DNA from: Deltaproteobacteria bacterium
GTDB taxonomy: Bacteria; Myxococcota; Myxococcia; Myxococcales; 40CM-4-68-19
Reading direction: 5' to 3'
Assembly: GCA_025358085.1 (NCBI GenBank)
Contig: JANYKT010000149.1
Span: forward strand, 1-63,325
DNA: 63,325 nucleotides
Part shown: piece after piece, positions 23,775 to 51,843 of the stretch
Layout of the letters: each line of letters begins with the position of its first letter
Position numbering within the stretch: the stretch's first letter is position 1
Translations under genes and position numbers: made by a program
The notes under the pieces: generated by a model
Database searches by the model: none
Told to the model about the DNA's origin: nothing
The model's input: only the letters and a program-made list of their open reading frames with translations

Positions 23775-24434
23775 ATGCGCTCCTTGTCCCTATGCATCAT
23801 CTTTCTCTTCGCCACCGCCGTGCTGGCGGAGGACAAGCCTGCCGACACGGATGAGATCCATGCCGTGCAGCGCCGACCCCTCCGCGAGGCAAAGCGGGTG
23901 GAGCTCTTTTCTTATGGATCGGTCAGCATCGCCGACCCCTATCTCCAGCGCTGGGGCGGCGGCCTGCGCGCCATGTGGCACCTGCGCGAGGGGTTGTCGC
24001 TGGGCCTCGATGGCAACGGCTTCGGCACCTGGCAAACGCAGGAACTGGTGATCGCCAAGCGCGAGCTGCACGCGCGCATCATCGACTCGCGCCAGCGCGC
24101 ATCGGTAGCGGCCGTGGCGGCCATCGCCCCTCTCTATGGAAAAGTAGCGCTGCCGGGCGACGTGCTGGTGCACTTCGAGACCTTCTTTGACGCCGGGCTC
24201 GGCGGCGCACTCACCGAGACCGACGCCGGCCGCGGCGTTCGGCCCATGCTGCTAGCGGGAATCGGGCAGCGCGTTTTCTTAAGCGAAGACTTCGCACTCA
24301 CCGCGCGTGTGGGCGGCGACCTCTATGCGGAGCGGGTGGTGATCGACGGCCAGCAGTCCACCAAGGCGATGGGTTTCTGGACCTTCTCGCTCGGGGTGTC
24401 CGTCTACTTTCCAGGCGGGCGGGGGGACCGATGA
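23775..24434 (+). CDS. Outer-membrane beta-barrel, first gene of Nfs/Glt-like operon (NfsA/GltA position)
   Basis: 219 residues from ATG 23775. A clear signal peptide (MRSLSLCIIFLFATAVLAED) is followed by alternating amphipathic strands (VELFSYGSVSIADPYLQRWG, FALTARVGGDLYAERVV) ending WTFSLGVSVYFPGG, as in the myxobacterial OMP beta-barrel family. In M. xanthus the GltA/B and NfsA/B barrels join a periplasmic and inner-membrane complex used for gliding or spore-coat assembly. It overlaps the second barrel by 4 nt (ATGA). The role is inferred from gene order; barrel sequences alone are not diagnostic. Confidence 0.8.
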   Translation: MRSLSLCIIFLFATAVLAEDKPADTDEIHAVQRRPLREAKRVELFSYGSVSIADPYLQRWGGGLRAMWHLREGLSLGLDGNGFGTWQTQELVIAKRELHARIIDSRQRASVAAVAAIAPLYGKVALPGDVLVHFETFFDAGLGGALTETDAGRGVRPMLLAGIGQRVFLSEDFALTARVGGDLYAERVVIDGQQSTKAMGFWTFSLGVSVYFPGGRGDR

Positions 24435-25249: not shown

Positions 25250-25268
25250 CGTGCAGGGGAGACACTCC

Positions 25269-26918: not shown

Positions 26919-26941
26919 TTTCTTTCACGAGGGTCTTCAAC

Positions 26942-31377: not shown

Positions 31378-31447
31378 GAAATGGTTCAAAGGCTCGCGGA
31401 GGCGAAGGTGTCTGGCGGGGCAGCTTGGTTGCACGAGGGGGCGGGAT

Positions 31448-31756
31448 ATGGGCGGCGGAAAAAAGTTCTGGTGGGCAATCGGGATGGCTGCGGCGCTCGG
31501 GCTCGGCCCGGGTGACGTGATGGCAAGCTCTCCAGAGGACGCTGCGGCAAACAACACTGCCGTGCAGCGGTCGGTGGGCTCCGCGAAGTCGCCGCGGACC
31601 GTCCTGCATTTCGGAGAGGACGACATTCGGGGCGACATCACCCGGCCGGACGGCGAGCTGGTGCAGGCGCCGCGGCGCGTGAGCGAGGGAAGCCTGCTTC
31701 GCATCCGAAGAAGCTTTGTCGACCGTGCGCTCTCTTCCATTGCTCGTGGCCAGTAA
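31448..31756 (+). CDS. Small exported protein, NfsF/GltF position
   Basis: 102 residues from ATG 31448; the frame is open upstream inside the previous gene, but that part is a shadow. The N-terminus (FWWAIGMAAALGLGPGDVMA) is a signal or anchor. The C-terminal half carries TVLHFGEDDIRGDITRPDGE followed by RVSEGSLLRIRRSFVDRAL. From memory this FxxDxIxGDxxRPDGE...SLxxIRxxF pattern recurs in small proteins next to AgmX-type genes in delta-proteobacteria. It may contact the FHA/AgmX protein encoded next. No enzyme motif. Confidence 0.72.
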   Translation: MGGGKKFWWAIGMAAALGLGPGDVMASSPEDAAANNTAVQRSVGSAKSPRTVLHFGEDDIRGDITRPDGELVQAPRRVSEGSLLRIRRSFVDRALSSIARGQ

Positions 31757-31788
31757 CCAATCTTTTCCAACCCGGGCTCCAAACGACC

Positions 31789-33714
31789 ATGAATCCGATC
31801 ACTCTCAAGGTTTATGACGGCGGAAAGCTCACCACGTCGCGCGTCTTCGAGACGGACAGCATCCGCCTCGGCAGCAGCGCCGCAGACCTGGTCCTCGAGT
31901 CGGCCAACATCGACGCCAGCCACGCCGTCATCGAGACGGGCGCGCACGGCGTCGTGCTGCGGGCGCTCGGTGCCGCGCCGCTGTTCCTCAATGGCCAGCC
32001 GATCATCGCGGCGCCGCTGCGACACGGGGACCTCATCTCTATCGGTGGGCTGCGCATCATGGTGGAGCTCCGACCTCCGCCGCCGCTCGTGGTCGCTCCG
32101 CCGGTGCCGCGCCCCCGGCTGCACCTCATCCAGACCGAGGTGACGAACGAGCAGCCTGGCCCTCCCCAACCCGCCCTGGCGGTGGTCCGGGGGACGCAGA
32201 CCGCCCCCGACCCGCGCAGCTCGCGGGCCGAAGGGGCCCTTGCTCCGGCGCTTCTGGTGCCTGTCACAATGCCGACCTCCGCTGTGAGCGCGCAGCCGGG
32301 CGGGATGGCGGCGAGAGAGGCTGCGCCGGCTGCAAAGCCTGCCGAGCCGACTCGCAAGCACAAGCTGCCGCCGCTTTCGCAAGCCGCGCTGCAGGGCGGC
32401 GATTGCGCCGAAGTCGAGCTTTTCTGGGGCGAAACCCGCATCGGCGTCTGGCAGCTTTCGCCCGGTGAGCAATTCGTCGCCGGCAGCGCGCCCGGATGCA
32501 TGGCGCTCCTGCCCGGAATCGAGCGTGCCCAGATCCTGCGCAGCGACGCGAACGGCTGGACCATCGCCGCGCCGCGCCCGCTGACACTGTCGCTCGAGGA
32601 GAACGGCCGGGTGCAGGCCGGCCCCGAGCTGCTGGTGCGCGGCCGCAGCCAGGCTGACGCGCAGGGCCTGCTGGCGCCGCTCAGTTCACGCTCGGTTGCG
32701 GTGCTTCAGAGCGGCCTGATGTCCCTGCGCGTGCGCCGGGTGCCGACGGCCTTCAAGGCGGGCGTCGAGCCGACCGACTGGAAGGGCATGCTGGTCGCCT
32801 CGGTGGCGGCGGTGCTGATGATGGTGGGCATGAAGGTGTGGAGCAAGAACGCGCCCCCGCCCAAAGTTTCTGGCGAGGCCGAACTGATCGTCTCGCGGCC
32901 CATGGTCGTGCGCAGCGTGGTCAAGCCCGACCCGATCGCGGTCAAGGACAAGTCCGCGCAGCAAAATGAAGGCCGCAAGGACCCGGGTCTGGCGGTCGCG
33001 CGGCACAAGGGCGAAGAGGGCCAGGCCGGCAGGAAGGACGCGCCCCGCCGGGAGGCCCGCGCCGAGCGCAGGTCGGCGGATGACTTGGCGATGGTCGCGA
33101 ACACTGGCCTGCTCAAGGCGCTGGGCGGCGGCAAGGGCGCGAGCAACGTCTTCGGCGTCGCGCTCGACAAAGGCGCGCAGGACGCAATGGGCCACCTCAC
33201 CGGGCCGCGCGTCGGGGACGCCCGTGGCGAGGGCGGCATGGGCCTCAAGTCGCTGGGCGGACGCGGCGGCGGCGGCGATGGCTCGGGCCTGGGGCTCGCG
33301 CGCATCGGCACCAACGGCATCGGCGGCGGTCTCGCCAACTACGGCAACGGCAAGGGCGGACTGCGCGGCAAGGAGAACGGCGAGATCGGCCTCGGGCCCG
33401 GTCAGCCGGAGGTGGTCGGCCACATCGACCCCGAACTCATCCGCAAGGTCGTCCACGACCACCGCGCCCAGATTCGCACTTGCTACGAGACCCAGCTGAG
33501 CACCAGACCGGACCTCGCCGGCAAGCTCGTCAGCGCCTGGACCATCGACCAGAGCGGCACCGTTACCGAGGCGCACACCTCTGAGTCCACGTTGCACGAC
33601 CACACCGTCGAAGGCTGCGTGGCCTCGAAGATCAAGACCTGGCGCTTCCCGATTCCCAAGGGCGGCGGCGAAGTCTTCGTCACCTATCCCTTCATCTTCA
33701 CTCCGGGAGGGTGA
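31789..33714 (+). CDS. FHA - TM - AgmX/PglI protein, NfsG/GltG (PglI) position
   Basis: 641 residues. An N-terminal FHA domain (residues about 1-93: FETDSIRLGSSAADLVLES, ASHAVIETG, GDLISIGGLRI) would read phospho-threonine in the cytoplasm. A second beta-rich domain spans about 205-315, then one TM helix near 333-351 (MLVASVAAVLMMVGMKVW). A charged linker and a Gly-rich stretch (about 480-537) lead into a C-terminal AgmX/PglI domain with ELIRKVVHDHRAQIRTCYET and conserved Cys565 and Cys610. That domain reaches through the periplasm like TonB. This is the most diagnostic gene of the Nfs/Glt set. Confidence 0.9.
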   Translation: MNPITLKVYDGGKLTTSRVFETDSIRLGSSAADLVLESANIDASHAVIETGAHGVVLRALGAAPLFLNGQPIIAAPLRHGDLISIGGLRIMVELRPPPPLVVAPPVPRPRLHLIQTEVTNEQPGPPQPALAVVRGTQTAPDPRSSRAEGALAPALLVPVTMPTSAVSAQPGGMAAREAAPAAKPAEPTRKHKLPPLSQAALQGGDCAEVELFWGETRIGVWQLSPGEQFVAGSAPGCMALLPGIERAQILRSDANGWTIAAPRPLTLSLEENGRVQAGPELLVRGRSQADAQGLLAPLSSRSVAVLQSGLMSLRVRRVPTAFKAGVEPTDWKGMLVASVAAVLMMVGMKVWSKNAPPPKVSGEAELIVSRPMVVRSVVKPDPIAVKDKSAQQNEGRKDPGLAVARHKGEEGQAGRKDAPRREARAERRSADDLAMVANTGLLKALGGGKGASNVFGVALDKGAQDAMGHLTGPRVGDARGEGGMGLKSLGGRGGGGDGSGLGLARIGTNGIGGGLANYGNGKGGLRGKENGEIGLGPGQPEVVGHIDPELIRKVVHDHRAQIRTCYETQLSTRPDLAGKLVSAWTIDQSGTVTEAHTSESTLHDHTVEGCVASKIKTWRFPIPKGGGEVFVTYPFIFTPGG

Positions 33715-33718
33715 GCCG

Positions 33719-34213
33719 ATGCTCCTCGCACTCCTCATCGCCGCGCCCTTCGCTGCCGCGGCCCAGCCGCAGCAACCTTGGCTGGAGACCTCCTTCGGGC
33801 CGATGGTGCTCCACCGCAACGGGGGGCTTGACAGCGGGCCCCTGCTGCGAATGCAGATTGCCTTTCCTCTTGGCGAGCGGCTCGCCGGCGAGCTGTGGGC
33901 CGCGGGTTCGCTGGAGAGCGCGCCGCTCGGCCGGCCGGGAGATCAGGCGCTGATCGGTGGCGGCGTCGCGGCGCGGTTCCTGCTTCATGAGTTCGATGCC
34001 GAGGGGCGCTTCGCACTCTGGGCCCACGGCGGCGCGGGTTATCTGGCGGCGGCGGCGGGGACCGGTCTCTCGGGTCCCGCTGGCTTTGGGGGCGCGGCTT
34101 TCGTCTTCCAGCCGCTCATCCGGCGGTTCGCGGTGGGGCTTGAGGCGGACGCAATCGGGGCCCGCTCGGCCTTCGGATTCGCGCTGCTGCCGACGCTGCG
34201 CTGCGCTCTTTAG
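33719..34213 (+). CDS. Small outer-membrane barrel, NfsH/GltH position
   Basis: 164 residues, 4 nt after the FHA-AgmX gene. The signal MLLALLIAAPFAAAAQ is followed by about eight amphipathic strands (ETSFGPMVLHRNGGL, EGRFALWAHGGAGYLAAAAG, FAVGLEADAIGARSAFGF) ending in a beta strand (LPTLRCAL). It completes the eight-gene NfsA-H/GltA-H order. The family is fast-evolving, so position carries most of the weight. Confidence 0.77.
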   Translation: MLLALLIAAPFAAAAQPQQPWLETSFGPMVLHRNGGLDSGPLLRMQIAFPLGERLAGELWAAGSLESAPLGRPGDQALIGGGVAARFLLHEFDAEGRFALWAHGGAGYLAAAAGTGLSGPAGFGGAAFVFQPLIRRFAVGLEADAIGARSAFGFALLPTLRCAL

Positions 34214-34267
34214 AGTCTACGGCAGAATCTCGCGCGCTTCGGGCTCGTGGCGTATGGTCCGCCTCAA

Positions 34268-35026
34268 GTGCGCTTCGCCTGCCCCGCCTGCCACGCAAGC
34301 TTCCAGACGGCATCCTCCGCGAGAGCGCGGGTGCAAGTTGCCTGCGCCGCGTGTTCTGCGAGCATGCAACCCGAGGCCGAAGTGCTGGATCTGCACCGCC
34401 TCCCGCCCCGGCGCCATGACCTCGGCGATCTGCAAGCGCGTCTCGCGCTGGACCGCGAGGCGACAGGGCCTGACCAGATCTGGTTCGTGGGTGTGGCCGG
34501 TCGCAGGGTCGGGCCGCTGACACTTGCCGGGCTCGATGGGCTCAAGGCGCGCGGTCAGCTGGCCGGAACCAGCATGGTGTGGCGCGATGGCTGGCCGATG
34601 TGGGCCGTCGCCGAAGCGGTTCCCGAGCTGCGGCCGCTCTTCGGTCTCGCGCACGAGCTCGCGGTGCCGCCGCTTCTCTCGCATGAGTCGCTGCCGTTCG
34701 CGGCGCCGGCGGAGGAGACTACCGAACCGGGTAGCGAGCCGGGTGACGAGCCGGGAAACCTCGAGCCCGGGAACCTCGAGCCGGGGAACCTCGAGCGTCC
34801 AGGCGCGATCGATCCCGCGAGTGCCCGAGGCAGGGTCCCGCCGCCGCGCGCCCGGACCCGCCGCGCCGAGGCGGAGTTCAGCGCTTCTTCTCTAGCCGAA
34901 TCGCGCCCGGTCGCGCTGCGCCTCGCCATCGCCATCGCGCTCTTGGCCCTCGCCATGGTCTTTGCCAGCCGCGCTTGCGTGCCAGCGCCCGCGCCCCCAC
35001 CGGTGATGAGCGGAGAGAAGCCATGA
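34268..35026 (+). CDS. Zinc-finger / GYF / TM protein resembling the N-terminal half of AgmX (GltJ)
   Basis: About 252 residues. GTG 34268 is preferred because AgmX-type proteins begin directly with the finger; an in-frame GTG at 34247 adds seven residues. FACPACHASF and VACAACSASM give the two CxxC pairs of an MJ0042-like finger. A GYF_2 domain follows (IWFVGVAGRRVGPLTLAGLD ... MVWRDGWPMWAVAEA). Then come a threefold 15-bp repeat (EPGNLEPGNLEPGNLE, about 34,750-34,796), a basic linker, one TM helix and a short periplasmic end. M. xanthus GltJ has the same front part but continues into an AgmX/PglI domain that is missing here. Confidence 0.82.
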   Translation: MRFACPACHASFQTASSARARVQVACAACSASMQPEAEVLDLHRLPPRRHDLGDLQARLALDREATGPDQIWFVGVAGRRVGPLTLAGLDGLKARGQLAGTSMVWRDGWPMWAVAEAVPELRPLFGLAHELAVPPLLSHESLPFAAPAEETTEPGSEPGDEPGNLEPGNLEPGNLERPGAIDPASARGRVPPPRARTRRAEAEFSASSLAESRPVALRLAIAIALLALAMVFASRACVPAPAPPPVMSGEKP

Positions 35027-36117
35027 AGCGGCCGCCCCTTCCGTTGCCCGATCTCTGGTCGCTCGGCGACCTCGAGCGCATGCGCCTGATCCTGCGCGGC
35101 GGCTCGGTGATCGAGTGGCGCCGGCTGCACTTTCAGACGGTTGCGGAGGTGGACCGCTACCTGCGGCTCTGCCTGTTCGAGCCCGCCGATCCGTTCGACC
35201 GCGCGCGCCTGCAGCGCATCCTCGACGAAGCGGTCGACTATCTGCGCACCACTTTCCGCTACGCGGTGGCCGACCATGTCGCGCACCCCAAGGACATCCA
35301 GACGCTGTTCCTGCTGGCCTCGGGAGTGGGCGAGCCGAAGCTGCGCCGCATCGCCTGCCTGGTGCTCAAGGTGATGCACGTCGTCCACCACGTCGAGGCG
35401 CGCGCGCAGCTGCACCGGGCGCGGCTCGCCGAGGAGGAGATGAACGTGCTGGTCACCGCGCGGGTGGACAACGCCATCGCGGCTCTGCGCGCGGAGGGAA
35501 TGCCCATCGTCTCGGCCTTCGGCAGCGTCAAGACCCGCCACGCGACCATCACCAAGCTGCTGGCCAAGAAGGAGACGCTGGCGGCGCAGGTCTACGATCG
35601 CGTCCGCTACCGCGTGGTCACCGCCGATCGCGCGCACGTCCTGCCGGTGCTGGTGCGGCTCTGCGACCTGCTCATTCCTTTCAACTTCGTGGTGCCCGGG
35701 CAGACGCAGAACACGCTCTTCTCCTTCCGCGAGCTGGTGCGCGGCACCCCGGAGCTCAAGGCGCTGGCGCCCGATCTGCAAGTCGGCCTGCACCTCGAGG
35801 AGCACGACCAGAGCAGCGGCCACCAGAGCGGGCCCGCCAATGAGTTTTCTGGCGACGGCTACCGCGTGCTCAACTTCGTGGTCGACCTGCCGGTGCGGCT
35901 GCCAGAGCGCGCGGTGGATGCGGGTGACGGCCGCATCGCTTTCTGCGTGGTCGAGCTGCAGCTGGTCGATCAGGAGACGAGCGTCGCCAACGAGCGGGGC
36001 GAGAACGCGCACGCGCGCTACAAGAAGCGCCAGCTGCGCAACGTGCTGCGCCGCCTGTCGCGCGGGCTGGTGGTGCCGAAGGGCAGCACCAAAGGCAAGC
36101 CGTTCACGAAGTCCTGA
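35023..36117 (+). CDS. TIGR04552-like protein with a RelA/SpoT-synthetase-like pattern
   Basis: 364 residues, coupled to the GYF gene by ATGA. It looks like a delta-proteobacterial conserved family I recall as TIGR04552 (unverified). The helical N-terminus contains DIQTLFLLASGVGEPKLRRI. The second half follows the order of RelA/SpoT synthetase motifs: SAFGSVKTRHATITKLL (K170, K178), VYDRVRYRVV (D192), GDGYRVLNFVV (Y280), FCVVELQLVD (E311) and ENAHARYKKR. In Rel enzymes the matching Asp binds metal, Tyr stacks GDP and Glu is the base. The inserts between motifs are longer than in Rel. Whether it makes (p)ppGpp is unknown. Confidence 0.75.
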   Translation: MKRPPLPLPDLWSLGDLERMRLILRGGSVIEWRRLHFQTVAEVDRYLRLCLFEPADPFDRARLQRILDEAVDYLRTTFRYAVADHVAHPKDIQTLFLLASGVGEPKLRRIACLVLKVMHVVHHVEARAQLHRARLAEEEMNVLVTARVDNAIAALRAEGMPIVSAFGSVKTRHATITKLLAKKETLAAQVYDRVRYRVVTADRAHVLPVLVRLCDLLIPFNFVVPGQTQNTLFSFRELVRGTPELKALAPDLQVGLHLEEHDQSSGHQSGPANEFSGDGYRVLNFVVDLPVRLPERAVDAGDGRIAFCVVELQLVDQETSVANERGENAHARYKKRQLRNVLRRLSRGLVVPKGSTKGKPFTKS

Positions 36118-41905: not shown

Positions 41906-42865
41906 ATGACTACAAACAAGGCCGCCGCTATCGGAGTCGCGCTCTGCGCGTGCGGAGGCACGCTGTTTGTCGACCCGAACCCGCCCCAGTTGCGGCGCGT
42001 GGTGGCGCAATACAGCACGCATGGCGCAGCCGAGCCGCTCATCTACCTGTCGCTCCTCGATCTCTACGTCGAGGACCCCAACACCTGCGGCTTCGCAAAA
42101 AACTGGTTTTCCGATGTCACGCAAAAGGCCATGCAGGAGACCAGTTCAAATCAGCTCGCGCTTGCAACACAGGATCTGGCCCCGCAGTGCACGCAGCGCG
42201 AAGGCGTGATTCTCGATACCGAGAGCATCCTGCGAGACGTGCAGCTGCTGATGGCCAACAATCCGCTTTCGCACCTCCGACTGGTGATCGTGTATGCCAA
42301 CAATCTCAATCTCTCGTTGCCCCCTGAGCGCAGCGAGAGTCTGAGGACATTGTCCGCGCGTCTCACCGCGCTGCAGGGGTGGCCGCCTCTTCTTTGGCTG
42401 GTGTCGTCCAAGGTCATCGCTAAAGAAGTATTCGCCGATGCCACGTCGGATTGGACCTACGCCGGCGACCCGGCAATGGTGACGGCCTTCCGGGCCTCGT
42501 TGAAGCTGGCACTGCCTCTCCAGAGCGAAGTGGGAACGGTCAGCCAACTGCAGCCGCTACTCAGCAGCTCCGACCTCGGGCGTGCGCAGCAATTCAAGCT
42601 GTGTTCTTCAGACCCGGAGGCAACGCTGCCCGGGGTGCCCGTGCTGGGAATGGCGGCGACACTGAATCGCTCCACGCCGCCGGCCTGGCAAATCACGCTG
42701 CCGCCGCAGATCGCCGTGACCAAGGTGGGCTTTACCCTGCACACGGTGAAAGCGCAGGTGGAACTTTGTGACGGCAACTGCGATCGCTATCTGAAGATCG
42801 ACCCTGACCAGCTGCAGCAGAGCTGGAATGTCTTTAGAGGATGCATGCTGGAAGGAGCGAAGTGA
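41906..42865 (+). CDS. Lipoprotein, first gene of the Mot/Fli-like envelope operon
   Basis: 319 residues from ATG 41906 (an upstream in-frame start at 41864 lacks a signal). The signal ends GVALCACGG, giving two possible lipobox Cys. The mature part is alpha/beta (AAEPLIYLSLLDLYVEDPN, LSHLRLVIVYANNLNLSLPP, GWPPLLWLVSSKVIAKEVF), reminiscent of a von Willebrand A-like fold. Several Cys follow, including VELCDGNCDRYLKID. No MIDAS motif is obvious. It overlaps the next gene (GTGA). It could be an outer-membrane adhesin or lid of the complex; function is not known. Confidence 0.7.
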   Translation: MTTNKAAAIGVALCACGGTLFVDPNPPQLRRVVAQYSTHGAAEPLIYLSLLDLYVEDPNTCGFAKNWFSDVTQKAMQETSSNQLALATQDLAPQCTQREGVILDTESILRDVQLLMANNPLSHLRLVIVYANNLNLSLPPERSESLRTLSARLTALQGWPPLLWLVSSKVIAKEVFADATSDWTYAGDPAMVTAFRASLKLALPLQSEVGTVSQLQPLLSSSDLGRAQQFKLCSSDPEATLPGVPVLGMAATLNRSTPPAWQITLPPQIAVTKVGFTLHTVKAQVELCDGNCDRYLKIDPDQLQQSWNVFRGCMLEGAK

Positions 42866-43440
42866 GGGCGCTCGCGCTGGCGCTGTTCGTCTCCCTTCCG
42901 GCGCTCGCGCAGACGCGAGTCGAACCGCGCCTGCTGATCAAGGAGCACCACTTCTTTGCCAGCGGAGGCCTGACCTGGCTTGCGCGCGGCGATTATTACG
43001 ACAGCCCCGGCTTGATTGCGCAGCTCTCGTATTACCCGATCGAGCAAGGCGGGCTCGATGTGCAGATCGCCGGACTTTTTTCCTTTCTCAGCACCTCCGG
43101 CGAGGAGGTCTTTCGCGTCAGCGGATTGGTCCCCGATGCACATATGCCGCAGGGCCTTTTGCTGGTTGGCTGGAGGCACACGCTGGCCTACGGCAAAGCG
43201 GCCATCGGTTCGCAAATCTTCCATTTTGATCTGCAAGGTGCCGGGCACATAGGCACGCTCATCACCGACCGCGCCTGGACACCCGCGCTGTCGTTGTCCG
43301 GTGGCCTGCTGGTGCGGATGAGCGACCGGTTCTTCGGCCAGCTCGATCTCGGGCTCCTGACCAATTACGAAAACCGGCAGCAATCGTTTCCGGTCAATTT
43401 CGGCTTCCTGCCGCTCTTGTCGATCGGTATCGAGCTGTGA
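42862..43440 (+). CDS. Outer-membrane beta-barrel
   Basis: 192 residues from GTG 42862, with AAGGAG at a good distance; ATG 42841 is an alternative. The signal RALALALFVSLPALAQ is followed by strands similar in style to the barrels of region 2 (HFFASGGLTWLARGDYYDSP, IGTLITDRAWTPALSLSGGL, RFFGQLDLGLLTNYENRQQS) and an ending FGFLPLLSIGIEL. The family looks like the myxobacterial barrels that partner Nfs/Glt proteins. GTGA overlaps join it to both neighbours. Confidence 0.78.
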   Translation: MRALALALFVSLPALAQTRVEPRLLIKEHHFFASGGLTWLARGDYYDSPGLIAQLSYYPIEQGGLDVQIAGLFSFLSTSGEEVFRVSGLVPDAHMPQGLLLVGWRHTLAYGKAAIGSQIFHFDLQGAGHIGTLITDRAWTPALSLSGGLLVRMSDRFFGQLDLGLLTNYENRQQSFPVNFGFLPLLSIGIEL

Positions 43441-45086
43441 TTGCGCTGCTCCTCGCCACCTTCGCGCAGCTTTTCTGGCAGCACGAGCTGGGCCTGCTCC
43501 GGCGCGAAATCCTTGATGACCGCGGCATGGGTGAGGAGCGCATGCTCTTCGACGACCTGCTCGCTCTCGGCACTTGCGCGCCGCTGTCCAGGTTGGCGGA
43601 GCCTTCGCCCATGCGGCAGCTGGTGCGGGTCGAGGCGGCGCGGCGGGTGCGGCTTGGGAAGGCGGCGGGCAGCTCGCGCACGGTCTGGCGTGACCTGCTG
43701 CGGCCGGGGTTTTTCTCGGTTGCCATCTTGAATCCCAAGCCGTCGAAGGCCCTTTACTGGATCGACGAGAAAGAGAAGTGGCCCAACGAAACGCTGCTGG
43801 TGCAGTCGCCCGCATGGCTCTGCGGCAAGCTGCCGGCGTGGTCCGCGGAAGAGCAGATTACCCAGGAACTCATCTCCTCCCAGGAGCCGCGCACGGCGGC
43901 CTTGCTCGCGTACGAGCGGGCCGCGGTGCAATTTCGGGCGGGGAAAGCGCTCGAGCTGCACGGGCTGGAAACAGAGCAGCTGCCCGCGAACCTGCGGCCC
44001 TATGCGCGCTTCCTGCGGCTGGAGGCGGGCGCAGACCCGCGCGAGGGATTCGCCGAACTTGCCGCGGTCCTGCCGGAACCCATCGTGCTCGACCGCGCGG
44101 CGCAGGCGCTCTACGACGCGGGCCGCTTTGCCGAGGTGGTGAAGCTCACCGAAGGGAAGCCGCCGCGCTTCTCCTTATGGATGCGTGCGCTGTCTTTGCT
44201 GAGGCTCGGCCGCGAGGACGAGATGCTTGACGCGCTGGCCCGCGGATTCGCCGCCAGCTCCGCAGGATTCGCCCCCGGAGGACCCGCCTCCGGAGGACCC
44301 GCCTCCGGAGCCGGGGCTTCCGGTGTCTCGGGTTCTGGAGTTGCCAGTTCCGGCGACGCCAGCACCGAGCCGCTGCGCGAACTCGCGATGCAGACGCTCG
44401 CGCGGCGACCGCTCGATGAAAAGAAGCTCGCGTTTTTCGCGGTCAAAGGGGCGGAGGAGGCGACTCTGCTGCAGTTGGGTCAACGCGCGCTGGCGGCCGG
44501 CAATGTCGCTACGGCGCGGGCGGTGGCGCAGGCGCTCGCGGACGAGCCCAAAGCGCGCAACTCGGCGGCAGGGCTGGCACTGCAAGGCGAGTCGGCGTTT
44601 GTCTCGGGCGACGCCGAAGCACTGCGCGACGCGCTGGCGCTGCTCTTCCCTGCCGGCGGCGGCTACGGTCGCGGCGCCTTGGCGGGCCCCAAGGCGCCGC
44701 GGGTTCCCGGGCAGCTGCGCGTCGCCGACCGCGACGAGCGCGACCATGCGGCGGTCGCGCTGGCGCAAGCGCTGGCAGGGCGCGCGCACGATCGGCCGGA
44801 GCTGGCCGCGCTGCTCGAGGAGACGTTCGCGCGCCTGCGCGAGGGCGTGCATATCCGCTACGCGCGCGAGATCGACAGCGTTGCCGAGACCCTGCACTCG
44901 ACGGTGGCGCGCGATCTGCAGCGCGTCGCGGTCGGCGAGATCAAGATCGCAAATCCGCCGCAGCCCCCGCCGCCGCCCAAAGCGGAGCTGGAGCTGCCCG
45001 AGCCTTTTTCCCTGCTGGCCATCCCCGTCGATGACGGGTCGCTGCGCAGCTGGTTTGCAGGACCGGAGGTCGTAGATGCGCATTGA
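43437..45086 (+). CDS. Periplasmic helical-repeat protein
   Basis: 549 residues from GTG 43437. A weak signal (VIALLLATFAQLFW) precedes a mainly helical body that includes TPR/Sel1-like pairs (AALLAYERAAVQFRAGKALE, LDRAAQALYDAGRFAEVVKL). A low-complexity linker from a DNA repeat lies at about 44,265-44,345 (PGGPASGGPASGAGASG), and a long helical part follows. The C-terminus is Pro-rich (NPPQPPPPPKAELELPEPF). Size and place resemble GltC-like periplasmic proteins, but no diagnostic motif is seen. It overlaps the next gene by 11 nt. Confidence 0.75.
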   Translation: MIALLLATFAQLFWQHELGLLRREILDDRGMGEERMLFDDLLALGTCAPLSRLAEPSPMRQLVRVEAARRVRLGKAAGSSRTVWRDLLRPGFFSVAILNPKPSKALYWIDEKEKWPNETLLVQSPAWLCGKLPAWSAEEQITQELISSQEPRTAALLAYERAAVQFRAGKALELHGLETEQLPANLRPYARFLRLEAGADPREGFAELAAVLPEPIVLDRAAQALYDAGRFAEVVKLTEGKPPRFSLWMRALSLLRLGREDEMLDALARGFAASSAGFAPGGPASGGPASGAGASGVSGSGVASSGDASTEPLRELAMQTLARRPLDEKKLAFFAVKGAEEATLLQLGQRALAAGNVATARAVAQALADEPKARNSAAGLALQGESAFVSGDAEALRDALALLFPAGGGYGRGALAGPKAPRVPGQLRVADRDERDHAAVALAQALAGRAHDRPELAALLEETFARLREGVHIRYAREIDSVAETLHSTVARDLQRVAVGEIKIANPPQPPPPPKAELELPEPFSLLAIPVDDGSLRSWFAGPEVVDAH

Positions 45087-46278
45087 AGCCGTGGTGGCAG
45101 CGCTACTTGCAGTGCTGTCGTGCGCGACAGCAGCGCTCGCCCAGGAGAGGGAAAACGGGTACGCCAACGACATCTTCGCCCCGCCCCAGGAGCCGGAGGT
45201 AAAGCCAGAAGTCAAACCAGCGCCCGCGCCGGAAATGCCGCAGGGCGCTGAGCTGCACGCCCGCAAGAAGCCGGTCGAGCACCTCAAGCTCCTTGACGGC
45301 CACCTCATCACCGGCGATGCGGTCTCGGCCGACGACGTGGTGGACGAGATGGTGGACGAGCTCGCCTCCGACCTGGCCAAGCTGGGCGCGGTGCACATCA
45401 GCCCCGTCCTGCTCGACCGCGTGCGCGTCTCAGACAATATGAATCCGCAATATTCACATATCCTCGAAGCGCGGCTCGCGTCGGCCATCTTCCGGGCCGC
45501 GAACGTGGCGCTGGTCCGCTGCGCGGAGTGCTGGACCACGCGCAGCCGCGTCGAGCAGAGTTCGTATGTGATTACCCGCGGCCTCGCCAGCCGTGCCGAT
45601 GTGCAGAAGGTGGCCGCCCATTACGGGGCGCGGACCTATCTCGATGTCTCGCTCACGCTGCACGAAAATCCGAGCTCGCTGGCCATGGACGTGGAGTTGG
45701 TGCGCGCCGAGGACTCGTCGATTGCGTTCGCCGAGTATTACCGGCTCGATCCCGACAAGGCCATCCTCTACCGCGGCGCCGATACCGCACAGCATCGCGA
45801 AGCCCGGCTCCAGGCGCTGCAGGACAAGGTCAACGCGCGGCCCCGCTACGGGGTCACCGTCGATTTCGGCGCCATGTTGCTTCCCTCGGACGCGGGCTCC
45901 CTCTGGGGCGCGCTCGGCCGCTACCAGCTGACCGAAAAGTTCGGCAGCGACGAGCAATATGATGCCGGGCTGTCGCTGGCGGGCTTCTTCAATTCGACGT
46001 CCTTCGCGGGCGGCATCCTCGGCGCGGTCTGGCAGATGCGCCTCACCGAGGGCGGCGTCTGGGCGCCCGAGTGGACAATGGGCTTCAATGGCGGAGCCTT
46101 CATTTCCGGCAACGCCGGCAACTCATTCATCGTCGGTGGCAAAGTGCGTGCGCTGATGGGGGCCCGCATCTCGATGGAAGCCGGACTCAATTACCTCGTT
46201 CCATTCCAGATCAAGGGCAGAGGCACCACCTACGGTGGCGTCGTTCCCGAATTTGCCGTGGGGTTCGTATGGCGCTGA
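45076..46278 (+). CDS. CsgG/FlgO-like domain fused to a C-terminal beta-barrel
   Basis: 400 residues. The signal peptide MRIEAVVAALLAVLSCATAALAQ is followed by a Pro/Lys linker. A domain at about 75-250 reads as CsgG/FlgO/TolB-N type: ILEARLASAIFRAANVALVR, then ITRGLASRADVQKVAAHYGA, then YLDVSLTLHENPSSLAMDVE. The last 130 residues alternate as strands (YGVTVDFGAMLLPSD, FAGGILGAVWQMRL, ISMEAGLNYLVPFQI) and end PEFAVGFVWR with a terminal aromatic. FlgO/FlgT-type proteins support sheathed-flagellum outer rings, so an outer-membrane bushing is an attractive reading, but it is inference. Confidence 0.75.
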   Translation: MRIEAVVAALLAVLSCATAALAQERENGYANDIFAPPQEPEVKPEVKPAPAPEMPQGAELHARKKPVEHLKLLDGHLITGDAVSADDVVDEMVDELASDLAKLGAVHISPVLLDRVRVSDNMNPQYSHILEARLASAIFRAANVALVRCAECWTTRSRVEQSSYVITRGLASRADVQKVAAHYGARTYLDVSLTLHENPSSLAMDVELVRAEDSSIAFAEYYRLDPDKAILYRGADTAQHREARLQALQDKVNARPRYGVTVDFGAMLLPSDAGSLWGALGRYQLTEKFGSDEQYDAGLSLAGFFNSTSFAGGILGAVWQMRLTEGGVWAPEWTMGFNGGAFISGNAGNSFIVGGKVRALMGARISMEAGLNYLVPFQIKGRGTTYGGVVPEFAVGFVWR

Positions 46279-46919
46279 GATCGCTTGTCTGGATTCTGCT
46301 GCTTGCCGGTGGCTGCGCGAGCATGAACAACCATAAGCTGGTGGTGCCGCCCGAGATGCGGCGCCCTCTCTTCACCGGCGCGCCCGCGAAGCCTTTGGTG
46401 ACTCCATCCAGGCCGGGCGCGGCGGTGACTCCAGGCAGGCTGGGCGCGGCGGCGGTGCCGGCAGCGCTGGTGCCGGTGAAGCCGATGCTGCCCTCGGCCG
46501 ATCCGGCGCAGCGCACCGTGCTCCGCCTCGCCGAGAACGGCCGGCTCTGGGAGGTCGAACTGCCCGAGACCACCGGCGCCTATGAGCTGCGCATTCCGCT
46601 CGAGGACACCCGCGGCACGCAGGCCGACGAGAAGCTGCTGGCGGGAGGATCCGCCGACCCGGCGAAGAAGAGCTATCTGGCCGGCCTGGCGCACGTCCGC
46701 GAACTCTATGATACTCGCAAGTACGAACTCGCTTTCATTGATTTGAATGACCTCGAGCAGGGATATCCCAATGACTCGCGGCTGCTGGCAATGAAAGGCA
46801 CTCTCTACCTGAAGCTCGGCAAGACCAGGCTCGCGCGCGAGACCTGGCAGCACGCGGTCCTGCTCGACCCCAACGATACCCAGACCGCCGAAGCGCTGCG
46901 CGGATTGAAGGAGGAGTAA
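46269..46919 (+). CDS. TPR lipoprotein
   Basis: 216 residues from ATG 46269, overlapping the previous gene by 10 nt. The lipobox is unambiguous (WILLLAGGCASMNN). A Pro/Ala/Val linker follows, then a small beta segment (RTVLRLAENGRLWEVELPET), then two or three TPRs (LYDTRKYELAFIDLNDLEQG, LAMKGTLYLKLGKTRLARET). It is similar in architecture to GltE/AglT but half its size. Its stop shares a base with the MotA-like start (TAATG), so the two are tightly coupled. Confidence 0.82.
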   Translation: MALRSLVWILLLAGGCASMNNHKLVVPPEMRRPLFTGAPAKPLVTPSRPGAAVTPGRLGAAAVPAALVPVKPMLPSADPAQRTVLRLAENGRLWEVELPETTGAYELRIPLEDTRGTQADEKLLAGGSADPAKKSYLAGLAHVRELYDTRKYELAFIDLNDLEQGYPNDSRLLAMKGTLYLKLGKTRLARETWQHAVLLDPNDTQTAEALRGLKEE

Positions 46920-47689
46920 TGCACGCCATCTTTGGATTGACCGGTTTTGCCATCGTGCTCGCCATCACCATCGCCCTGGAGCAGGCCAATGCAGCCTTTA
47001 CAGGTTTGTTCTATGGGCCGGCCTGCCTGCTACTGGTGGCCGGTCCCCTCTTCATCTCCCTGGTCTCGCACAAACTCGATGAACTCTCGGGGACGTTGCG
47101 CATGGTGGGCCGGGCCATCCGCTTCGCACCTGCCCGCTCACGCGAGTCTCTTTATGAAGAGCTGACACGCTTCGCCGCCGAGGTCCGTCGCGGCCGCCCC
47201 GCCGAGGCATTGGCCATCGCCGACAGCTCCGACAACGACCTGCTGCGAAAACTCGCGCCGCTGGTGGTGCGTCAATACAAGGCCGATGAGCTCGAGCGCA
47301 GCGCCGCCACCGCCATCGCCGTCGCCGCTTCCTCGATGAAGCGCAGCGAGGACGTGCTGACTTCGCTCGCGCGCGTGGCGCCCGCGGTGGGCCTGGTCGG
47401 GACCACGCTGGGCCTCATTTCGCTGCTCAAAGACCTGCACAACTTCGAGCAGCTCGGACCATCGATGGCGCTGGCCCTGCTGTGCACCATGTATGGCCTG
47501 TTGCTCGCCAATGCCGTCTACCAGCCGCTCGCGCGACTGGTTCATGTGCATTCGAGTGTGCGACTCGAAGAAGCGCGGCTGCTGCTGAGGGCGCTGCTCC
47601 TCCTCACGGAAGGCAAGCCTCTCGCCGATGTGCGCGCGCTCTTCGACCAGCCAGCGGGCGAGCTCCCGCCGCAGCTCGCGGTGGGCTGA
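46919..47689 (+). CDS. MotA/PomA-like stator protein
   Basis: 256 residues with four TM helices (about 1-20, 29-50, 148-170, 181-205) and a cytoplasmic loop between TM2 and TM3. The MotA/TolQ/ExbB core is clear: APAVGLVGTTLGLISLLKDL then LGPSMALALLCTMYGLLLAN. The overall order, with a loop containing YEELTRFAAEVRRGRPAEAL and an ending LLLLTEGKPLADVRALFDQP, fits MotA/PomA better than TolQ. MotA forms the pentamer that rotates around MotB when ions flow. The 3 nt gap to motB-like supports a joint stator unit. Confidence 0.9.
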   Translation: MHAIFGLTGFAIVLAITIALEQANAAFTGLFYGPACLLLVAGPLFISLVSHKLDELSGTLRMVGRAIRFAPARSRESLYEELTRFAAEVRRGRPAEALAIADSSDNDLLRKLAPLVVRQYKADELERSAATAIAVAASSMKRSEDVLTSLARVAPAVGLVGTTLGLISLLKDLHNFEQLGPSMALALLCTMYGLLLANAVYQPLARLVHVHSSVRLEEARLLLRALLLLTEGKPLADVRALFDQPAGELPPQLAVG

Positions 47690-47692
47690 TCG

Positions 47693-48319
47693 ATGGATCC
47701 CTTCCTCATCGAGGAGCCGCCCGAGCCGCAGCAGGATGAACTATGGCTGATCAGCTATGCAGACTTATTGACTCTGCTGGTCGGCTTCTTCGTCCTCATC
47801 ATCGCTTCGATGCCGTTGAAGATGGCGCGCTTCGAGCGCGTCGCGGCGGCCATCTCCGGCTCGAAGGAAGCGCCGCTGCAGGACCTGCGCGAGAAGGTCG
47901 ACTCGCTGGTCGCGCGCTCGCCGGAGCTGCGCGACCGGGTGATTACGCACGATGACGCCGAAGGCCTTGGTATCGAGTTCAAGGACGCCATGCTCTTTGA
48001 TTCCGGCTCGGCCGAAATCAATGGCGGCGGCAAGACGGCGGTGGCGCAGATCGCGAAGCTGCTGCACGACTTGCCCGGCCGGGCCATCACCGTGGAAGGC
48101 CACACCGACGACGTGCCGATCGCCACGCCGCAGTTCCGCAGCAACTGGGAGCTGTCGTCGCAGCGGGCCATCAACGTGCTCTCGGCGCTGGAACAAAGCG
48201 GCGTCCAGCGCGAGCGGATGAGTGCGCGGGCCTATGCGGACACGCGCGCCCAGTCGAAAGAGGGAACAGTCGAAAGTCGCCGCACCGCCAATCGCCGCGT
48301 CGTCATCCGGGTGGAGTAG
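47693..48319 (+). CDS. MotB/PomB-like stator protein with OmpA peptidoglycan-binding domain
   Basis: 208 residues. The single TM helix carries the family's essential acidic residue (ELWLISYADLLTLLVGFFVL, Asp24). A plug/linker region leads to an OmpA_C-like domain with LFDSGSAEINGGGKTAVAQI, ITVEGHTDDVPIATPQFRSN and ELSSQRAINVLSALEQSGV. Asp24 would carry the ion (proton or sodium). TolR/AglS-type proteins lack this OmpA domain, so this is a MotB-class, wall-anchored stator and not an AglRQS motor. Confidence 0.93.
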   Translation: MDPFLIEEPPEPQQDELWLISYADLLTLLVGFFVLIIASMPLKMARFERVAAAISGSKEAPLQDLREKVDSLVARSPELRDRVITHDDAEGLGIEFKDAMLFDSGSAEINGGGKTAVAQIAKLLHDLPGRAITVEGHTDDVPIATPQFRSNWELSSQRAINVLSALEQSGVQRERMSARAYADTRAQSKEGTVESRRTANRRVVIRVE

Positions 48320-48323
48320 CCCA

Positions 48324-49958
48324 ATGCTCGCAATCATCTTCGCCGTCGCCCTCGCAGCGCAGCCATCACTCACAAAAGTCGGCCATGACGCCGAGGAGCG
48401 CGGCCGCGCCGAGGTCGCCGACCTGCTCAAGTCGCTCTGTCCCGAGCAGTGCATCCTGCTCTCGGTGCAGGCGCGCGTGGAGTCGCAAGAGCTCCCCAGC
48501 GACCCCACCCCGGGCTTCGATGCCGCGGCCTCTCCGAGCATTCCCGAGCTCCGGTCCGTCGATGCAAGCGTGCTGGTGGACTCGCGGCTGCCGGCCCCCT
48601 TCCGCGCGCGGGTGAAAGCGCTGGTCGGGCAGCGACTGCTTGCCCTGGGCGTGCCGGTAAAAGTCTCGCTGGAGCAGGTCTCGTTTCCGCAAAAGAACCC
48701 GGCGTATCTCGACCCGCCGCCTCCGCTGAAGCCCCCGGAAGCGAAGGTGCCGGACGTGCCCAAGCCCGAGATCGCGGCGGCCTCGCCCGTGGCAGCCATG
48801 AAGCTGGACGAGCGGCTGCTCGAGCATGCGCCGCTCCTGGCGGTGGTGGCGATGCTGGGGCTGGTGGTGGTGGTGCTGGGCGGGCTGTTCTTCCTCGCGG
48901 CGCGGCCGCGGCCCGAGCCACAGCCAGAGCCGCTTTATGACTTCGCGCCTGAGCCAGAGCCGGCGGCGCCGGCTGAGGGATTTCCGGTAGCGCGGCTGCG
49001 CAAGCTCGAGAAGCAGCTGGTCGATGAACGAGCGCTGCGCAATGCGCTGGTGCGCGAGGCGCTCGGCCGCGGAGAGTACGCGCTGGTCGCGCGCTGGGTG
49101 CGCGAACTGGGTGATTTCCTGCTCGAGGATGTGCGCGGTGACGGTGCGCTCGCGGCGGCGCTTGCGGGAGTCGCGGTCGAAGTGGTCAAGCCCATCGAGG
49201 CCGGGGCACGCACGGCAAGCCTGCAGGAGTTGGAAGGGCGGACCATCGCGGCGCGGCTGTCGCGCGCGGGTGAAGATGACGCCTTTGCCTTCCTCGAGGG
49301 TGTGCAGCCCGACGCGTTCGCGGCGGCGAGCGCGGGGCTCTCGGCGGGCGCGCGGGAGCTGCTCCTGCGCTTTGCTCCCGCGCATCTGCGGAGCGTGGCG
49401 CTGCGCGATCTCGATGCGGCGGCGCGGCAGGAAATTGCGCTCGCCTGGGCGCGGAAGCCGCAGGTCAGCAAGAGCTACGCGCTGGCGGCAGCCGACGAGC
49501 TGCGCGCGCGGCTCTCGCAGCTGAGCGCCGCGCCCCCGGCCGATCGCGCGCTGTCCGATCTGCTCGACACGCTCTCGCGTGCGGAGCAGGACGCGCTGGT
49601 TTCCCGGCTGCAGCGCGAAGCCGGCAGTGGGGGCAGGGCCGCGGGGCTGATCACTGAATCGACACTGTTCAGCGCGCCGGCCGACGCGGTGGCTGCGGCG
49701 GCTCTGCGCATGGCGCCGGAAAAGCTGCTGGCGTGTCTCGCGGGCGTGGACGCGCTGGTGCTCGACGCGGTCCTCTCGGCGCTGCCGCCAAAGCTCGTGG
49801 CCGAATTGAAAGAGGAGCTGTCGTTGGGCTCGCGTGGCGCGGGCGACTTCCACGCGGCGCGGCGCGAGCTGCTGGCCCGGCTGCGCGAAGAGTTGAATAA
49901 GCGTAGTTTCGCTGGGCCGGGACTTCCGGCGCGGCCCCGTCTCGGTATGGTGGAGTAA
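48324..49958 (+). CDS. FliF(C-terminal)-TM-FliG-like fusion (rotor-like protein)
   Basis: 544 residues from ATG 48324. After a short signal, residues about 22-125 resemble the FliF periplasmic ring domain: AEVADLLKSLCPEQCILLSV and SVDASVLVDSRLPAPFRARV, then KALVGQRLLALGVPVKVSLE. A Pro-rich linker and TM helix (about 170-193) follow. Residues about 220-528 read like FliG: AFAFLEGVQPDAFAAASAGL, ALSDLLDTLSRAEQDALVSR, then LLACLAGVDALVLDAVLSAL and PPKLVAELKEELS. FliG torque-helix charges appear conservatively kept (Lys490, Glu497, Glu498). The EHPQ motif is degenerate. Adjacent motA/motB genes support a rotor role. Remote similarity read by eye. Confidence 0.72.
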   Translation: MLAIIFAVALAAQPSLTKVGHDAEERGRAEVADLLKSLCPEQCILLSVQARVESQELPSDPTPGFDAAASPSIPELRSVDASVLVDSRLPAPFRARVKALVGQRLLALGVPVKVSLEQVSFPQKNPAYLDPPPPLKPPEAKVPDVPKPEIAAASPVAAMKLDERLLEHAPLLAVVAMLGLVVVVLGGLFFLAARPRPEPQPEPLYDFAPEPEPAAPAEGFPVARLRKLEKQLVDERALRNALVREALGRGEYALVARWVRELGDFLLEDVRGDGALAAALAGVAVEVVKPIEAGARTASLQELEGRTIAARLSRAGEDDAFAFLEGVQPDAFAAASAGLSAGARELLLRFAPAHLRSVALRDLDAAARQEIALAWARKPQVSKSYALAAADELRARLSQLSAAPPADRALSDLLDTLSRAEQDALVSRLQREAGSGGRAAGLITESTLFSAPADAVAAAALRMAPEKLLACLAGVDALVLDAVLSALPPKLVAELKEELSLGSRGAGDFHAARRELLARLREELNKRSFAGPGLPARPRLGMVE

Positions 49959-49960
49959 CC

Positions 49961-50959
49961 ATGCGCAAAGCGTTGCTGATTGCGATGTTGTTCGCCGTCC
50001 CCGCTTGCGTCATCATCGATGACAGCCTCGACGCCGGAACGCCGCAACCGCCCAACCTGGCCGACGCCAATGTTTGCGCTCCCGGCAGCCTTGATCCCGC
50101 CTGCAACATCGGTGACGGCGGTGGTGGCGGCGGCGGAGGCGGCGGAGGCGGCGGAGGCGGCGGAGGCGGAGGCGGAGGCGGTGGCAGCAGCGACGGCGGC
50201 GTCCCGAAAGTCGGTTTCCCCGGCAGCGGGAAAAATGGCGACTCTGGCACCGGTGTCCTCTGGCTGGTTCGCATCGATCGCGGCTCGGCCAATGTCGCCG
50301 ACGCCGAAGAATTGCTGATCCACCAGACCATCGCCGCGCTCACCTCTGCCGGCCTTGGCGTCACTTCGATGACCGTCATCTCGCTTTATGACGGGCACTC
50401 CATCTGGTCCGCGATCGGCGCGGACGCCGGCAAACAGCCGGGGCTCGCCGATGCGCTTCGACGCGAGGCGCAAAGCGCCTCCACTACACCCCCGCCCGCC
50501 TGCGCCGCGTCTACCCTTGCCAACCTCCCCTGGAACTTCCTTCCGCGGTCGTCTGCGCTGCTGGTCGGCGTCATCGACCACGGCGCGCGGACGCTGGGCC
50601 TGGACGCCTGCGACAGCAGCGCCCTCTCTTCCGACCCGCAGCGGTGGCAGCACTTGAATTCAAGCCTCCCGCTCTCAAGGGTGCAGACGCGCTTTGCCCT
50701 CCTCGCCACTCCGGAGGAAGGCACGGTCGATCAGATGCGGCAGCGTTGCCTCGCCGTAGCCGGCTTTCCCAGCCAGGCTCTCGATGCGCTCCAGCCGTCT
50801 GCGCTGCGCTACTTCGGGCCGCTCGCGGCGACGCTCTCCGCGGCGCAGCCTGGTCTATCCACTCAAGCTGACCTTTGCGATGCCTTCGGAAACGGCTGGC
50901 CGGCCACGGCAAGCTCGATGGCAACCCAATGGGCAGCGGTGCTGGCGCGGCTGCAATGA
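49961..50959 (+). CDS. Lipoprotein with polyglycine tether
   Basis: 332 residues. Lipobox LFAVPACVII, then a short Cys-containing segment, then 23 consecutive Gly (50117-50185), then an alpha/beta domain. That domain begins TGVLWLVRIDRGSANVADAE and includes LTSAGLGVTSMTVISLYDG and SALLVGVIDHGARTLGLDA, so a VWA-like fold is possible, though the MIDAS motif is not canonical. Three or more Cys may pair. The flexible tether would let the domain move away from the membrane. It overlaps the next gene by ATGA. Comparison with CglB-type adhesins is suggestive only. Confidence 0.72.
   Translation: MRKALLIAMLFAVPACVIIDDSLDAGTPQPPNLADANVCAPGSLDPACNIGDGGGGGGGGGGGGGGGGGGGGGGGSSDGGVPKVGFPGSGKNGDSGTGVLWLVRIDRGSANVADAEELLIHQTIAALTSAGLGVTSMTVISLYDGHSIWSAIGADAGKQPGLADALRREAQSASTTPPPACAASTLANLPWNFLPRSSALLVGVIDHGARTLGLDACDSSALSSDPQRWQHLNSSLPLSRVQTRFALLATPEEGTVDQMRQRCLAVAGFPSQALDALQPSALRYFGPLAATLSAAQPGLSTQADLCDAFGNGWPATASSMATQWAAVLARLQ
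50117..50185 (+). repeat. GGC/GGA microsatellite encoding 23 glycines
   Basis: A run of 69 nt made of GGC, GGA and GGT codons, much of it as a GGCGGA 6-mer. It encodes 23 Gly in a row inside the lipoprotein gene. Lengths that are not multiples of three would shift the frame and remove the C-terminal domain, so the tract could vary the protein or switch it off by slippage. Confidence 0.97.
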
Positions 50960-51744
50960 ATCGCGGGAACCCGCGTCTAGCCCGGCAATCCGCGCGGCGC
51001 GCGTCCCGGCCCACCTTGCGGTCCAGCGGTCCGGTGTCGCGGACTAGCGCCGGGGCGCTGCGCTCCTTTGCGACGCTCCCGCCGCGTACCTCGACGCGGC
51101 GGTCCAGCGATTCTTTTAGTCGCAAACCCGCGTCGCGCGCTGCTGCGGGCGCGTCGCTTCGACCGCGGTCTCGTTCACTGGCGGGGCGCGCTGGTGCCAA
51201 GTCTCCCGGGCGCAAGCGCCGGTGGCTCGCGGCCCTGCTGCTGCTCGCGCTCGCGTTCTTCTGGCTGCGGCCCAAAGCGTTTTCTCCGCCGCTGACAGCC
51301 GCAAAGTTGCCGGCCGTCGTCACCAAGCCGCCAGACCACCACGCCACTGCGCCGCCCGTCGAGCACAACCCCGGCACCGCGCCCGGCACGCCCAGCACAA
51401 AGCTGGCATCGCAGAAGAAGCTCGTCGCCCCGCCGCAGAAGAAGGCTATTGTGTCCGTTGCGCGCCCCGACGGGATCTCGCGCGAGCTTCTCCTCGCCGC
51501 GGTGCAGGCTCGTGCGCCCACGCTGCGCGCATGTCCGCTGCCGCCCGGCGCCCCGGCCCGCGTGTCCGCGCGTCTGCGCGTCGCCCACGCGGGTGAACTG
51601 CGCACTGTCCAGTTTATCAATCCCGAACCGCTGCCGCACTCGCTCGCCGAGTGCCTGCGCACCACGCTGCAACACTGGTCATTCAAGGATTTGCCGCTCA
51701 AAAGCGACGTCGAAGTGCTGGTAGATTTTCTGCTCGGCGCTTGA
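50956..51744 (+). CDS. TonB/AgmX-like protein with basic cytoplasmic arm
   Basis: 262 residues from ATG 50956 (ATGA overlap). The first 90 residues are very basic and Ser/Arg-rich (RQSARRASRPTLRSSGP, SRKPASRAAAGASLRPRSRS). One TM helix follows (RWLAALLLLALAFFWL), then a Pro/Lys periplasmic linker. The C-terminal domain has ARAPTLRACPLPPGAPARVS, then ELRTVQFINPEPLPHSLAEC and LRTTLQHWSFKDLP. That pattern of two Cys and a W/F near the end is shared with AgmX/PglI C-terminal domains. It may contact the outer membrane. It closes the operon. Confidence 0.78.
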   Translation: MNRGNPRLARQSARRASRPTLRSSGPVSRTSAGALRSFATLPPRTSTRRSSDSFSRKPASRAAAGASLRPRSRSLAGRAGAKSPGRKRRWLAALLLLALAFFWLRPKAFSPPLTAAKLPAVVTKPPDHHATAPPVEHNPGTAPGTPSTKLASQKKLVAPPQKKAIVSVARPDGISRELLLAAVQARAPTLRACPLPPGAPARVSARLRVAHAGELRTVQFINPEPLPHSLAECLRTTLQHWSFKDLPLKSDVEVLVDFLLGA

Positions 51745-51843
51745 GCAGCGATGAGCGAATTTTTTGCGTCTGCCCGGTGAACGGCGCATGGACCGCTGCA
51801 ATCAGCCGCGCGACCAGGGCTCCGGATTGTTACACTTCATAAA

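Follow-up and report, generated by a model that had tools for sequence, protein, structure and literature searches.

A stretch of 63,325 nucleotides from a Deltaproteobacteria bacterium of the Myxococcales (lineage 40CM-4-68-19; contig JANYKT010000149.1, positions 1 to 63,325), hereafter referred to as the window, contains ten genes, A to J, which together probably encode a rotary machine that has not been described before and that acts on the cell surface. The ten open reading frames are located on the plus strand between positions 41906 and 51744 (Table 1), all of them at the coordinates given in an initial annotation of the DNA, which had described a ten-gene envelope operon. Neighbouring genes overlap or are at most 4 bases apart, the successive gaps from A to J being -25, -4, -11, -13, -1, +3, +4, +2 and -4 bases, and the ten genes form one operon. 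The start of H was placed at about 48324, which corrects the earlier description. Of the flanking genes, the two that were tested (38020 and 51844) are not retained together with the operon; the conserved unit therefore consists of the ten genes A to J. The terminator-like hairpin that overlaps the end of J is a match to the consensus only, and shuffled sequence gives no fewer matches of this kind.

Table 1. Features of the ten-gene operon and of the separate gliding cluster in the window.
Feature	Positions	Strand	Description
A	41906..42865	+	Cys-rich lipoprotein, no known family; lipobox Cys16
B	42841..43440	+	Outer-membrane beta-barrel, OMP_myx_plus family (TIGR04565)
C	43437..45086	+	Probably secreted, mostly helical; conserved PEPxSLLAIP...WF motif at the end; no known family
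D	45076..46278	+	Secreted; conserved CxxC-containing N-terminal domain and possible C-terminal beta-barrel; no known family
E	46266..46919	+	Tetratricopeptide repeat (TPR) lipoprotein
F	46919..47689	+	Stator subunit of the MotA/PomA type with four hydrophobic segments; conserved residues include Arg90 and the two channel prolines
G	47693..48319	+	MotB-type subunit, MotB_plug and OmpA-like peptidoglycan-binding domain; ion-binding Asp24 conserved
H	48324..49958	+	Naturally fused FliF and FliG parts: signal peptide, single ring-building domain, transmembrane segment 171-189, FliG middle/C-terminal-like domains
I	49961..50959	+	Lipoprotein, poly-Gly tether and von Willebrand A (VWA)-like domain
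Triplet repeat in I	50116..50201	+	CGG-type repeat coding for the poly-Gly tether
J	50956..51744	+	Inner-membrane protein, hydrophobic segment 91-109, periplasmic AgmX/TonB-type C-terminal domain
Terminator-like element	51738..51757	+	Hairpin and T run
Glt cluster	23286..36117	+	In order: two OMP_myx_plus barrels, GltC, large TPR protein, GltE, GltG, CglE-like, GltJ-like, TIGR04552 gene

The candidate rotor of the machine is the product of H. It had been annotated as a FliF-FliG-like fusion, and this assignment is backed by profile-profile comparison, Pfam and structure searches. FliG chains head the list of solved-structure matches of the C-terminal half of H (E 8e-4), and the Pfam domain FliG_C is present in 12 of 16 H homologues, the strongest match being a member of the type III modules described below (L047). 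An hhalign comparison of the H C-terminus with a real myxococcal FliG gave a probability of 93 (E 2.9e-7, 233 columns), with a negative FliF control. In a Foldseek search with the predicted structure of H, ranks 1 to 13 were all occupied by FliG, and the MS/S-ring of FliF appeared at ranks 14 and 19. The N-terminal domain adopts, in the predicted model, the alpha-beta-beta-alpha-beta order found in ring-building domains; its best FliF alignment lies on the third ring-building motif (RBM3), and the control against FliG was negative. The case for a FliF-FliG fusion is made firmer by the type III modules, whose fusions are homologous to H (E 5.7e-11) and match, within a single chain, both FliF RBM3 (probability 90, E 1.5e-6) and FliG (E 6.6e-22). 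In the region that forms the torque contact, the acidic pair D288/D289 of FliG corresponds to two glutamates in 10 of 12 H proteins. Comparison of sequences and models thus supports H as an inner-membrane protein of the ring type, RBM3-like on its periplasmic side and with a FliG-like rotor domain in the cytoplasm.

Directly upstream of H, F and G encode the candidate stator. F matches the MotA_ExbB family with an E value of 6e-18 and, among solved structures, MotA/PomA with an E value of 1e-22. The ion-binding aspartate was found in all 14 operon MotB proteins that were aligned with E. coli MotB, and each of the 13 operon MotA proteins compared retains Arg90. The position of these stators was analysed in two trees of the MotA family, comprising 36 and 33 proteins, respectively, both of which are limited by long branches. 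The flagellar MotA clade excludes the operon MotAs in both trees (support 100/100 and 99/100, respectively), and in the second tree, the operon MotAs are also set apart from the TolQ/ExbB/Agl-type proteins (100/100). Monophyly of the operon MotAs is neither rejected nor shown by the approximately unbiased test (p 0.387). A survey of stators had distinguished a flagellar clade with torque-interface features from a non-flagellar clade without them, with the flagellar-type stators forming a single clade (PMC12505986). Taken together, F and G are supported as a MotAB-type stator with a peptidoglycan anchor in the OmpA-like domain of G.

The remaining seven genes encode predicted outer-membrane, periplasmic and inner-membrane proteins. 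B of the window matches the OMP_myx_plus model with an E value of 2.4e-5, which is under the curated cut-off; the model is matched by all six B homologues (best 2.8e-12) and by the two barrels encoded in the window's Glt cluster, and judged by these profile matches, B belongs to the GltA/GltB barrel family. The lipoprotein A is 28-33% identical in other loci, and six cysteines (Cys61, 95, 233, 288, 292 and 313) are invariant in its homologues; a profile match of A to I, which would have pointed to a second VWA protein, was not found. D had been described as a CsgG/FlgO-like barrel. This is not borne out, as 13 homologues gave no CsgG or FlgO match in Pfam and none was obtained against E. coli CsgG, a FlgO sequence not being part of the comparison; homologues of D are also located upstream of E, MotA, MotB and H in the type II modules described below. 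The initial annotation recognised I as a glycine-tethered lipoprotein, which holds, but overlooked its von Willebrand A-like fold: the predicted structure of its domain, confident in the core, resembles both von Willebrand A domains and integrin I domains in a structure search. A von Willebrand domain is also carried by CglB, a surface protein of the Agl-Glt gliding system (PMC13104615), and I, as a VWA-like lipoprotein, is a possible counterpart of CglB. The length of the tether differs widely among homologues of I, and the CGG-type repeat that encodes it may therefore be length-variable. In one genome (G001; L018 8889-10220, minus strand), I and J are found as a single frame of 444 codons, which is either a fusion or an assembly frameshift. 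The C-terminal domain of J contains two invariant cysteines, and 6 of 10 homologues match NF033768, the AgmX-type tail (best 7.2e-6), in agreement with the earlier description of J as TonB/AgmX-like.

Homologous loci were searched for in 60 genomes at first, then, with a profile of H, in 145 genomes of the order, and in 195 of the phylum, the window's own genome being counted among the carriers. H was found in 9 of the 60 genomes, in 14 of the 145 and in 18 of the 195. Eight of the 14 positive genomes of the order belong to the window's family, and the other six are G036 and five large genomes of a second family, including Archangium lansinium; A. lansinium MIWBW carries the operon, and the remaining named carriers are metagenome-assembled genomes from soil. 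Mapping of the gene neighbourhoods showed that the operon recurs in Myxococcota and that its order is kept in two families: all ten genes keep their order and orientation in five further complete loci (G001, G002, G004, G005 and G036) and in four loci of the Archangium group. It had been considered that the barrel and lipoprotein genes might not stay with the Mot/Fli genes in other genomes, or that such loci might normally lie in complete flagellar clusters. In the ten complete loci, including the window, the genes are kept together, and none of the homologous loci is part of a flagellar cluster. Four additional, more distant genomes were detected in the phylum search, one of which (G163) contains a different module type and not the ten-gene operon. 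The gene set of the other three is present in rearranged form, the block A-B-C being located behind J: the order is D-E-F-G-H-I-J-A-B on one contig of G154, where C was not found, D to J and then A-B with C after B on two contigs of G161, while D to J were seen on two contigs of G164. This degree of conservation is far beyond chance. The median identity to the window decreases from the motor parts (MotB 69%, MotA 62%) to the outer parts (I 41%, A 32%, C 32%), as would be expected if the latter meet a changing environment. A contig search with a single MotA protein as query gave no match and one with the H alignment gave seven loci; no plasmid-borne copies of H were found.

Within the limits set by the completeness of the assemblies, the eight operon carriers in the window's family yielded neither FlhA nor FliM/N, and the six carriers tested from two families yielded no separate FliF. 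Conversely, the operon is absent from two genomes of the family that encode FlhA and FliM/N, which gives a tally of eight genomes with the operon and without FlhA, two with FlhA and without the operon, and two with neither. A statistical link between the operon and loss of FlhA is not claimed, as the genomes are too few and the comparison is confounded by genus. In the Archangium group, FlhA-type and FliM/N-type matches are present, which probably represent the type III secretion genes already known from myxobacteria. Neither of the two genomes in which FliF was sought (G036, G067) gave a match to it.

Related modules of different composition were also detected. Type II modules (L114 4441-16647 and L115 5495-15336) encode a lipoprotein, a D homologue, a TPR lipoprotein, MotA, MotB, an H-like protein and a large lipoprotein. 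L114 lies at about 10.2 Mb in Archangium lansinium, where a type II module and the ten-gene operon coexist. Type III modules (L047, L116, L117, L118 and L121) consist of a FliF-FliG fusion, a TPR protein, MotA and two MotB proteins, and two partly read loci (L119, L120) look like further examples. In G031, a regular flagellar cluster lies some 100 kb away from the type III module, and the type III MotA of G163 falls inside the flagellar clade in both trees. MotA, MotB and an H-like protein are common to both module types. Tentatively, Myxococcota may possess a superfamily of non-flagellar rotary machines of FliF-FliG rotors and MotAB stators with at least three module types, at least one of which would move surface adhesins and have stators that are sisters to those of flagella and did not arise from within them.

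The window contains a second set of genes related to movement, the Glt gliding cluster on the same strand as the operon (Table 1). In other carriers, the nearest GltG gene is unlinked to the operon: it lies on another contig in relatives from the family, where it could be placed, and megabases away in Archangium, although A. lansinium has a GltG paralogue about 20 kb from the operon. The adjacency in the window is therefore probably incidental. Carriers of the operon also hold Glt genes and AglRQS-like genes. In one AglRQS-like locus (L102 in the carrier G002), two ExbD-type genes come after a gene of the AglR type, and the window's own genome contains a close relative of this first gene (L003). 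Elsewhere in the window, the minus strand of 56069-58129 encodes an Ala/Thr-rich protein of 686 codons with a lipobox-like start, whose GC content is lower at codon position 1 than at position 2, unlike that of its neighbours.

The operon combines features of two known systems. With the core of the flagellar motor it shares a four-helix MotA with Arg90, a MotB with the ion-binding aspartate and an OmpA-type anchor, an RBM3-like domain of FliF, the middle and C-terminal domains of FliG and, in most members, the acidic pair of the torque helix. In contrast to the flagellar motor, FliF and FliG are fused and FliF is cut to one ring domain instead of the RBM1-3 of a full MS ring; FliM/N, FlhA and a separate FliF were not found in those carriers of the family that were searched, an outer-membrane barrel and lipoproteins are added, and the stators lie outside the flagellar clade. 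A natural FliF-FliG fusion has been reported from Chlamydia, together with FlhA, an injectisome and few flagellar genes (PMC4768692). Like H, it has a reduced periplasmic part and occurs in a non-flagellated bacterium, but H adjoins a complete MotAB stator and outer-membrane genes. The second system is Agl-Glt of Myxococcus xanthus (AglRQS, GltA-K, CglB), with which the operon has in common an OMP_myx_plus barrel, a TPR lipoprotein, a VWA-like lipoprotein and, as a weak match, the AgmX-type tail. Its stator is MotAB-like, however, with a PomA-like F and a single MotB containing an OmpA domain instead of AglR with two ExbD/TolR-type proteins, it has a FliF-FliG rotor, and its proteins match none of the NCBIfam models for GltG, GltC and GltE, which the cluster at 23-36 kb does. 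GldLM, the motor of type IX secretion and gliding in Bacteroidota, is likewise an ion-driven inner-membrane motor tied to outer-membrane and surface parts (PMC13104615); no GldLM-type family matched F or G. No description of the operon was found in the open-access literature that was searched, preprints and subscription journals being outside its scope, and within this literature the composition of the machine is new, while its single parts are known.

The initial annotation had envisaged a machine across the whole envelope, possibly for surface movement, in which a flagellar-type stator and a rotor-like fusion occur without other flagellar genes, and the analyses described above support this composition, its function staying a matter of inference. 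With moderate confidence, we propose that the product of the operon is a dedicated rotary machine, ion-driven and non-flagellar, that reaches across the whole envelope. Its most likely purpose would be adhesion-coupled surface movement in the manner of Agl-Glt, with a flagellar-type torque generator replacing AglRQS. In such a machine, ion flow would turn MotA, and MotA would drive a ring of H, the drive contact being formed by the conserved Arg90 of MotA and the FliG acidic pair of H. Since no FliM/N switch is encoded, the direction of rotation is probably fixed or set in another way. As it turns, the periplasmic collar of H might, along with the putative TonB/AgmX-type transducer J and with E and C, transmit force to D and B in the outer membrane, by which the surface-type lipoproteins I, resembling CglB in its VWA-like fold, and A would be moved or exposed.

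The motor parts of this proposal are well supported by comparison of sequences and structures, whereas rotation of an H ring and the purpose of the machine are deduced. The role in surface movement is less certain than the motor; it is suggested by the VWA-like domain and by the parts that resemble Glt. Several observations weigh against the proposal. The alignment of H itself with the FliF domain is weak (P 0.003, probability 10), and the structural model of H is of low confidence (pLDDT, the predicted local distance difference test, 62). The torque contact would be flagellar-like only in part, because MotA E98 is not conserved in the operon MotAs, FliG K264 is not kept in the H proteins, and the position of FliG R281 is occupied by serine in two members of the Archangium group and in G164. 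The DxSxS metal motif of a canonical metal-ion-dependent adhesion site (MIDAS) is absent from I, and the Glt and AglRQS-like genes of the carriers would render a second gliding motor partly redundant.

Some of these observations would fit a different task for the same stator and rotor, namely the transport of coat material or of a surface polymer around a cell that is not itself moved. A precedent is the Agl-Nfs machine, which is powered by Agl and rotates surface carbohydrate during sporulation of M. xanthus (PMC3858216). The lack of a canonical MIDAS in the VWA domain of I and the presence of Glt genes in the carriers agree with this idea, which is nevertheless possible rather than likely, since the operon contains no genes for polysaccharide synthesis or export and neither of the two tested flanking genes is conserved. 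It is also rather unlikely that the operon encodes a Ton/Tol-like machine, in which the stator and rotor would energise transport across, or remodelling of, the outer membrane. The TonB/AgmX-type periplasmic tail of J, the barrel B, the possible barrel D and the TPR lipoprotein E could be accommodated in such a machine; however, the stator is MotA/PomA-like with a peptidoglycan anchor and not TolQR/ExbBD-like, as is evident from the full support separating the operon MotAs from TolQ/ExbB-type proteins (100/100) and from the OmpA domain of G, which is not that of an ExbD/TolR protein. Moreover, a FliG-like rotor is not needed for Ton/Tol function, and no receptor or substrate genes were seen.

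H could alternatively be a fixed scaffold or sensor that is pushed by the stators, as part of a mechanosensor or a defence-type machine comparable to Zorya (ZorAB), in which a MotA/MotB-like ion-driven unit likewise operates outside flagella. This is very unlikely, even though the FliG torque contact is conserved in part only and G matches the ZorB models of PADLOC (E 1.3e-22). The latter similarity is expected, because a transmembrane helix and an OmpA domain are common to both proteins, and it was dismissed as generic; F has no match to ZorA, the other nine operon proteins match no PADLOC model, Zorya effectors are missing, and ten conserved envelope genes fit a defence system poorly. A decayed flagellum or injectisome, which might be suspected because F, G and H have flagellar homologues, is highly improbable, as it is contradicted by ten intact genes whose order is kept across genera and families and by the position of the operon MotAs outside the flagellar stators, and as no flagellar counterpart was identified for seven of the ten genes.

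The operon thus places stators with flagellar-type features beside a rotor resembling FliG, in genomes devoid of flagella, and joins them to outer-membrane parts of the gliding type. Whether the Agl motors rotate has been reported as unclear (PMC13104615), and the operon, with a gene for a rotor protein adjoining those of the stator, is a natural comparison for this question. If the proposed rotary machine exists, the flagellar torque generator would be used, or may even have been used first, outside the flagellum.

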